From NCBI GenBank assembly GCA_913030915.1, contig CAJWEW010000006.1:1-61496 (forward strand): 61,496 nt of DNA, in the 5' to 3' direction. This document shows positions 57,856-61,496 of the stretch, piece by piece. The stretch comes from an uncultured Rhodobiaceae bacterium (GTDB taxonomy: Bacteria > Pseudomonadota > Alphaproteobacteria > Rhizobiales > TMED25). The position numbers and the translations under genes are program-made. Numbering within the stretch: the stretch's first letter is position 1; each line of letters begins with the position of its first letter. A model generated the notes under the pieces. The model did not search any database. It saw nothing but the letters and a program-made list of their open reading frames with translations, and was not told the DNA's origin.

Positions 57856-59682
57856 TTAATTTGCCTGTTTTTTTAGGAATGATGGTAATTCTAACTCACC
57901 CTCTGGGTCCAAAGAACCATCATCAATTGTATTATCTACAAGATCATCCTCTTTGTTTTCGACCAAATCAATATCCAGAAGGCTATCTTGGATTTCATTA
58001 TCGCTGGGTGCGCTCACTTTATCCAACACCTCTTCAGTATCACTCTTCAAATCAAAACTCTTTCCTTCTGTGAGGTCAGAGTCACTAGCACTCAAATCAT
58101 TAGAGAGGTTTTCCGTGTCCTGGTCTGTCTCAATGATACCTGACTTAGCAGTTTCAATTTCAGGCTCTTTTATGCCTAAATTATCGTCTATTTCGGTATT
58201 TGAGTTCAATCCTATGTTTGAATAGTTACTGTCAACCATGGGCGTTTGATCTGCTTGGTCTTTTTTCTTGAATCCGACGTTTACAAGCTTACTCAAAAAA
58301 CCACCTTTATTTCTTTTTTCGCCATCATCTAAGAGCTGTTCATTCATTGCCATTGAAATATTTTCATCTTTAATTGAGAAGAACTCACTCACTCTCGGTA
58401 TCTCATTTATTTCTTTTGTTGGTTGTCTTTTTTCATTAATATTCGCTTTACTCATTTTATCATTTATTGAATTTTCATTAACGGGCTTCCTCTTATCTTT
58501 TGACGTGAAAAAATTATGACTGCCATCTATTTTTTTTATTGATACGTCACCATCATATTTCCTGTCTTCATCTGCAGATTTAATATGGTTTGAGCTACCA
58601 CTTAAGGGTCGTATCTGAAAATCTTTTTGGTGATCTTCATCTCTCTCAATGTTTATCTTTGGAATAGTATAATTTTTATTAAATGTATAATTTGTAGAGT
58701 CAATATTCTTGATATTATTTTGAATACCAGTTGCTACCACAGATACCTTAACGGATCCCTCTAAATTAGAGTCAAAAGTTGCGCCGAGTATGATGTTCGC
58801 ATTATTATCTACCTCATCCCTTATTCTTGTAGCAACCTCATCAACTTCAAAAAGAGTAAGATCTTCACCGCCTGTTATTGAAATTAATAGGCCCTGCGCT
58901 CCTTTCATTGATACATCATCCAAAAGTGGATTCGAAATAGCTGCTTCTGCAGCTTCAATTGCCCTTTTTTCTCCTGAAGCTTCCCCTGTACCCATCATAG
59001 CTTTGCCCATCCCAAACATAATTGACTTTACATCCGCAAAATCAAGATTTATCAATCCTTCTTTTACCATCAAGTCTGTAATACCAGACACCCCTGACAG
59101 AAGGACTTGATCTGCCATAGCAAAAGCATCTGAAAATGTTGTTTTTTCATTGGCAATTCTGAATAGATTTTGATTTGGAATTACAATTAATGTATCAACA
59201 TACTTGCTTAATTCTTCTATACCTTCATCCGCTATTTCCATCCGCCTTACACCTTCAAATTGAAATGGTTTCGTTACAACTGCAACTGTAAGAATTTCCT
59301 GCTCCTTACAAAGCTGCGCTATTACAGGTGCGGCGCCTGTGCCAGTTCCACCACCCATACCAGCTGTAATAAATACCATGTGTGACCCTGCAGAATAATC
59401 CAGTATTTCTGCCTGTGCCTCTTGAGCCGCCGCGGCGCCGATTTTTGGCTGCGAACCAGCTCCTAAACCTTCTGTTAGATTTGTCCCCATCTGTATTCGT
59501 CTATCAGCACTTGACATTGCAAGAGCTTGAGCATCAGTATTAGCAACAACAAATTCGACTCCATCTAATCCTTCTTGGATCATATTGTTTACAGCATTAC
59601 CACCTGCACCACCAACACCAAACACCGTAATTCTTGGCTTCAACTCACTCATAGCATCTGGAATCTTTAAATTTATTGTCAT
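57856..59682 (-). CDS. ftsZ: Cell division protein FtsZ
   Basis: [38 protein letters not shown]-terminal [10 protein letters not shown] after a long charged linker. Confidence 0.98.
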
Positions 59683-59735: not shown

Positions 59736-61037
59736 TTAGAAACTGTCCTTAAACCATCTCATCAAACTAGTAATAAAATTATTACCTGGATTATAAGATA
59801 AGCCTTTAGTGGTTATTTTTTTATTAACAAAAGTTTCATTCTGTGAATAAGTTAACATACCGCAAGCATTAGAAAAAATTGGATCCGAGATATCAAAATC
59901 TTGTGAGATTAGCCTTGGAACTGCGCGTCTAACTGGTGATTGAAAAATTTCACTGGCTAAATCATCAATGCCGATAAGCTGGCTTGCACCACCTGTAAGC
60001 ACCACTCTTTTTTGATTTAACAAACCTGGACTAATATTTTGAATCGTAGCCTTCACCTTCTCAAGCATATCTAAAGCACCCGTTCTGGATATATCAGCAA
60101 TAGTCGATTTATGAATTTGTTTCTCAGAGCTTGAATCTTCCTGATAGCCTAACTGTCGAATGCTAACAGTATCCCCATTATCGTATGAGTTAGTCAAAAC
60201 ACCGCCATACAAAATCTTTAGCTTTTCGGCGTCATCCATACTAATTGAAAGTGCGCGCGCAATATCAATAGTTATATTATTACCACCATATGGAACCACG
60301 CCCGCATAACGAAAAATATTATCAGAAAATATTGAATAAGACGTTGTTCCAGCCCCCATATCAATAACAATTGATCCAAGATTTGCTTCGTCAAGAGACA
60401 GAGTTGCAACAGCACTTGAAATCGGTGTAAAAATTATTCTTTCCACCTGTAAATGAGCACTTTCAATAACATTACTTATATTCTGAATGATACCTTTTGC
60501 ACAGGTTAAGTTATTTAGATTTATATCTAGTTTTTCTCCATACATCCCAACAGGATCTTCAATTAGATCAACTCCATCAATTGAAAATCCTAATGGAATG
60601 GTCTCAAATATTAATTTATCCGATGACTCATTTTGCTCCGTAGCTATTGATAATGCTTTCTCCAACTCTTTTTTTGTCACTTGGGTATCGTTTATTGGAA
60701 TGCTAATTTCATATAAATTCGACTCAACCTTGTCAGATGTGATGTTCACTGAAATTTTATCAATAGTTAGTGAGGACATTTTTTCAGCATCCTCAATCGC
60801 ATTTCTAATTGATAATTCGAGATTTGATGGATCAACTATGCTTCCATGTTCAAAACCAATGGATTTATGGTGCCCTAGCCCAAGAATTTCAAATTTTTCC
60901 CTGTAATTTTCAACAATGGTATTTTTTGCTATTAAACAAATAATTTTATCTGAACCAATATCCAACACTGCAGAAATTGTGTTAATATTTTTCTTAAGCT
61001 TCAATCCAGACATCTTATCAAATGACATCAAATACAT
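59736..61037 (-). CDS. ftsA: Cell division protein FtsA
   Basis: ISAVLDIGSDKIICLIAKN; SIVIDMGAGTTSYSIF; VVLTGGASQLIGIDDLASEIF. Confidence 0.95.
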   Translation of the reverse strand: MYLMSFDKMSGLKLKKNINTISAVLDIGSDKIICLIAKNTIVENYREKFEILGLGHHKSIGFEHGSIVDPSNLELSIRNAIEDAEKMSSLTIDKISVNITSDKVESNLYEISIPINDTQVTKKELEKALSIATEQNESSDKLIFETIPLGFSIDGVDLIEDPVGMYGEKLDINLNNLTCAKGIIQNISNVIESAHLQVERIIFTPISSAVATLSLDEANLGSIVIDMGAGTTSYSIFSDNIFRYAGVVPYGGNNITIDIARALSISMDDAEKLKILYGGVLTNSYDNGDTVSIRQLGYQEDSSSEKQIHKSTIADISRTGALDMLEKVKATIQNISPGLLNQKRVVLTGGASQLIGIDDLASEIFQSPVRRAVPRLISQDFDISDPIFSNACGMLTYSQNETFVNKKITTKGLSYNPGNNFITSLMRWFKDSF

Positions 61038-61051
61038 ATAAAACTCTTATA

Positions 61052-61496
61052 TTATATTTTTGAGCTGTTCATTATAACTCCGGTGGGCAGTATATCAATT
61101 CTATCGGGCAATCTCATGTCAATTATTTCAATATATCTGCTTAGAAGTGAGTACTCGTTATCCAAATCTTCTATTTCTTCGATCGCATTCGCTATATTCT
61201 TTTCCGGCAGGTGTATCGTTATTCCATTGTGTAAACGGATCGTCCAGCGTCGATCTCCGACCCTTAACAGAGATTTAATTTTTTTTTCAAACTCAGGATA
61301 TTCTTTTATCAAACTCTTAGTCCCCACACCCTTTACTCCAGGTATGCTGTCTGATCTATCACCATCTATCACCCTACAGGTTAGGACATTTTGTGGATAA
61401 ATTCCAAACTCTTTTCTCACTAATTCCTTATCATAGGTTATCTTCTTTGTCGGCGAATACATTTGAACTCTATCACTTACCAACTGATAGAAATCT
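61052..61496 (-). CDS. ftsQ: Partial/chimeric ORF: FtsQ C-terminus (~61052-61275) joined in frame to phage-type 5'-3' exonuclease/RNase H H3TH region (~61300-61496)
   Basis: C-terminal half VGDRRWTIRLHNGITIHLPEKN...LLSRYIEIIDMRLPDRIDI is FtsQ-like and lies next to ftsA; N-terminal half DFYQLVSDRVQMYSPTKK...GIYPQNVLTCRVIDGDRSDSIPGVKGVGTKSLIK is FEN/RNase H-like; frame is open to the window edge. Confidence 0.75.
   Translation of the reverse strand, partial: DFYQLVSDRVQMYSPTKKITYDKELVRKEFGIYPQNVLTCRVIDGDRSDSIPGVKGVGTKSLIKEYPEFEKKIKSLLRVGDRRWTIRLHNGITIHLPEKNIANAIEEIEDLDNEYSLLSRYIEIIDMRLPDRIDILPTGVIMNSSKI

Follow-up and report, generated by a model that had tools for sequence, protein, structure and literature searches.

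Introduction

Does the open frame at the right-hand end of this contig encode a protein in which a phage-type nuclease is joined to the C-terminus of the cell division protein FtsQ, or were two unrelated sequences joined there during assembly? The window analysed here, 61,496 nucleotides long, corresponds to contig C6 in its entirety, and the fusion occupies its final 445 bases. C6 belongs to a 42-contig draft genome of 1.31 Mb, 93% complete, from the marine OCS116 alphaproteobacterial group, and the named relatives found with the protein in a contig scan are marine OCS116-cluster/Rhodobiaceae genomes. The frame runs on the minus strand from 61495 to 61052 (147 amino acids) and is open from the contig edge, its 5′ end being truncated because C6 ends there. 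On the basis of sequence comparisons, the nuclease-FtsQ fusion is almost certainly an assembly chimera of a bacterial contig and a marine phage.

Domain content and genomic setting

The preliminary description of this DNA had read the frame as a 5′-3′ exonuclease followed by the C-terminus of FtsQ, and profile matches agree with it. PHROG 107 (‘exonuclease’) covers residues 1-64 (E 3.9e-4) and Pfam 5_3_exonuc residues 33-81 (E 1.6e-6, under the Pfam gathering cut-off), while FtsQ_DivIB_C (PF03799) matches residues 63-128 over its cut-off (E 1.2e-9). The 3′ part of host ftsQ (61052-61300, minus strand), recognised by PF03799 and by its DNA match to sister ftsQ genes, lies, as had also been described, upstream of ftsA (59736-61037, minus strand), which is the next ORF in a normal division cluster; the order ddl-ftsQ-ftsA is the same in the sister locus L004. 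The ORF of ftsZ is found at 57856-59682 (minus strand), and beyond it stand genes which, from recognition of their translations, we take to be lpxC, a bamD-like gene, recN and ligA. The FtsZ ORF is long (608 amino acids), with an extended charged C-terminal region past the GTPase part. At its left end C6 cuts an ABC-transporter-permease-like ORF (1-747), followed by a paralogous permease (744-1616); no foreign sequence is apparent there by eye.

The first half of the frame matches a marine phage exonuclease gene

Positions in the frame are numbered here along the minus strand, q1 being base 61496. Over q1-207 (61496-61290) the DNA is 91-95% identical, without gaps, to seven marine viral contigs of IMG/VR (L027-L033), and the tail has an exact 44-nt match within one of them, IMGVR_UViG_3300020474_001036. 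Both L027 and L029 have the matching stretch within an intact gene for the exonuclease (369 and 388 amino acids as listed). That gene sits between genes for a UvsX-like recombinase and a DnaB-like helicase, with SSB and RNR nearby, as judged from neighbour matches; this neighbourhood looks like a T4-like phage replication module. The seven contigs form a closely related marine phage group to which no named phage is close: the exonuclease has its best full-length relatives among these (Microcystis phage Mel-JY01, an unannotated uncultured phage and Flavobacterium phages) at 38-41% protein identity.

At the protein level, the first ~69 residues of the frame are 96-97% identical to this marine phage exonuclease (PHROG 107, Pfam 5_3_exonuc_N/5_3_exonuc), e.g., that of IMGVR_UViG_3300020474_001036. 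The full exonuclease of L027 has an N-terminal domain over the Pfam cut-off (E 2.2e-33) and a C-terminal one under it, but the piece in the window, cut at its 5′ side by the contig end, is internal only, and both the N-terminal domain and the remainder of the C-terminal domain are absent. Thus, of the architecture formed by an N-terminal resolvase-like domain and a C-terminal SAM-fold domain, the frame holds part of the latter, and its phage half breaks off inside that domain.

These values bear directly on the idea that the first half of the frame is simply a divergent FtsQ, with no phage segment at all. Identity to ftsQ over q1-180 amounts to 15-45% per 20-base bin, against the 91-95% shared with the viral contigs, and nothing was found in favour of such divergence; the idea is refuted by the DNA comparison and its probability is virtually nil.

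The second half is an ordinary ftsQ whose 5′ part lies on contig C5

From q186-197 down to q445 (~61300 to 61052), the DNA is 77-90% identical to the ftsQ of five same-genus genomes, in all of which the gene is an intact frame of 257-295 amino acids. When the source genome itself was searched with sister FtsQ, two places were found: C6 has the C-terminal 88 residues, and contig C5 the N-terminal part. There, ddl (72468-73379) is followed by ftsQ, which starts at 73399 and runs for 134 codons up to the last base of the contig, 73800. Over its final 500 bases, C5 shares 86-87% DNA identity with the closest sisters, and, measured against L004, the gap in ftsQ between the two contigs is 109-120 bp. 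The true continuation of the broken gene (codons 1-134) is therefore present elsewhere in the same assembly, at the C5 end.

The expectation that a POTRA domain belongs at the ftsQ position also proved right, with the difference that POTRA_1 (E 6.9e-12) is carried by the C5 piece and not by C6. Compared with FtsQ of the OCS116 group (POTRA_1 plus FtsQ_DivIB_C), the last ~85 residues of the frame are its C-terminus in the usual place before ftsA, but the membrane anchor and POTRA are absent from C6 and located on C5, so that, of membrane segment, POTRA and C-terminal domain, the frame holds part of the last. Because ddl and the 5′ half of ftsQ end C5, with a gap of this size to C6, ftsQ is an ordinary gene divided by a contig break, to which foreign sequence was appended on one side. 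The C5 and C6 ends belong together (ddl-ftsQ/ftsQ-ftsA), which provides a scaffold join for the draft genome.

The switch from phage to host sequence

In 20-base bins, the match to the phage stays at 18-20 of 20 up to q200 and then drops to 10 and to 2-9 of 20; the match to host ftsQ is 3-9 of 20 up to q180, then 13 and then 14-20 of 20. The change from one parent to the other is thus sharp and falls around q197-207, where the parents have sequence in common. The 11 nucleotides at q197-207 (61300-61290, minus strand), TATCCTGAGTT, are identical in phages L027, L029 and L030 and in hosts L003 and L004, as seen base by base; the phage-derived tail proper, an internal piece of a FEN-like exonuclease, spans 61301-61496 (minus strand). 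The 11 nucleotides lie within a 22-nt stretch of near-identity (q186-207; 61311-61290), in which 19 of 22 positions are the same in L029 and L003. No 22-nt match between phage gene and ftsQ is better than this stretch, which was equalled in one of 30 codon-shuffled pairs.

In the window the shared stretch has the form TGATAAAAGAATATCCTGAGTT; q188 agrees with the host, and q194 and q196 agree with the phage, a mixture that would fit local phage and host strains having the entire 22-mer in common. The 20-nt junction pattern TGATAAAAGAATATCCTGAG had no exact match in the viral contigs; therefore, no viral contig searched has the full shared stretch in exactly that form. Translated, the stretch reads IKEYPEF in the window, IKNYPEF in sister FtsQ and VKEYPEL in the phages; the join does not disrupt the reading frame, since both genes are read in the same phase across it.

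The preliminary description had set the switch around a 9-nt T-run. The run exists (61279-61287, plus strand; an A-run on the minus strand), but it lies within host ftsQ, is conserved in the sister genes of L003 and L004, and is not where the junction falls. That placement was slightly off: the switch is at 61290-61300, at most 61290-61311, upstream of the run in the direction of the gene.

A join that keeps the frame, and that sits at a microhomology which illegitimate recombination could also use, is what might be expected if a fragment of the phage exonuclease had truly recombined into the ftsQ of a single strain, giving an insertion or a pseudogene and perhaps amounting to minor variation among strains. 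Several observations make this improbable, leaving it a slight chance. C5 carries an intact 5′ half of ftsQ that reaches the contig end, cell division normally depends on this gene, and the UvsX, helicase, SSB and RNR neighbours suggest a T4-like lytic phage rather than one that integrates. That part of the phage exonuclease gene entered ftsQ via the microhomology, in a rare but real variant of the strain, is very unlikely; a dead lineage or transient product would then be more probable than a fusion that functions.

Search for the fusion in other genomes and viruses

A real recombinant is further disfavoured by the absence of such a junction in relatives. Of the family's 13 other genomes, five matched a 141-base query spanning the junction; all of these matches start at query positions 60-62 (61311-61309) and cover the host side only, and none of the 13 gave a match across the junction. 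The contig scan with the frame returned only the ftsQ of four OCS116-group genomes, with no fusion. The comparison with sister genomes that had been proposed thus gave an intact ftsQ and no fusion, and the same fusion, whose presence in independent genomes a conserved gene fusion would require, was seen in none of 40 relatives. A literature search on OCS116 and phages turned up nothing relevant.

Other sources for the nuclease part were also considered. In 298 genomes of the order, the C6 tail is the sole match to the full phage exonuclease at E≤1e-40. In relatives, the exonuclease half also matches weakly at a second place, mostly with 29-42% identity and in most of them within a frame of ~930-1,100 amino acids; this is the size of DNA polymerase I, and a stand-alone exonuclease encoded by the host was rejected. 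When a 10.2-kb stretch of related phage was compared with the source genome, no further significant match was found except 77 bases (77%) on contig C3, which come from the recombinase gene and presumably correspond to host recA. Insertion of a prophage was considered and rejected.

A functional nuclease-FtsQ fusion, coupling DNA processing to the divisome, would draw on a single feature, the open in-frame ORF. Neither the 40 relatives nor the 56 viral loci compared have a homologous fusion, the phage half stops inside the SAM-fold domain of the exonuclease, and, as C5 reveals, ftsQ in this genome begins in the ordinary way, with anchor and POTRA domain. The probability of such a fusion is accordingly negligible. 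That recombination or a novel fusion is less likely than a chimera, as was initially proposed, is borne out by the ftsQ on C5 and by the lack of the fusion in relatives.

A probable wrong join during assembly

The preliminary description favoured a chimera made in assembly with a co-occurring phage, and this explanation gains support from the two parents recognised at the DNA level, the short shared sequence at the switch, the ftsQ on C5 and the missing fusion in relatives; it accounts for all that was observed. In the proposed course of events, a metagenome assembly path through an OCS116-group ftsQ would have left the bacterial sequence at a stretch shared by a marine phage that co-occurred with the bacterium (11 nt for certain, and up to 22 nt if the local strains differ slightly from their known relatives), continued for ~200 bases into the phage 5′-3′ exonuclease gene, and stopped. 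The true ftsQ goes on in C5, with the ~109-120 bp between C5 and C6 left unassembled. The wrong join would have arisen during assembly, probably with a small k-mer, rather than in the cell; a common 22-mer would suffice to mislead a de Bruijn graph assembly at k = 21. Against this stands the fact that the identical overlap between the known parents is just 11 nt, and an overlap of 22 nt requires GAA in the local host where the sisters have AAT, and ATA in the local phage where its closest relatives have GTA (TTG in L028); nor were the exact strains, phage or host, found.

Chimeric contigs of virus and bacterium have been reported in simulated communities, where they are few compared with chimeras between related genomes (PMC3901335). 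Like those, C6 combines two unrelated parents in one contig and differs from them in nothing of kind; its join lies at a short shared sequence and at the contig end, and both parents exist separately and intact elsewhere.

Implications

The fusion ORF is no new protein. It should stay out of protein databases as a new domain architecture, and its relevance is one of quality control only. The final ~196-207 bases of C6 should be regarded as foreign, and virus-like sequence at the end of a contig, as here, is weak evidence for a link between phage and host. For the genome of this OCS116-group bacterium, the end of C6 can be placed beside the end of C5.
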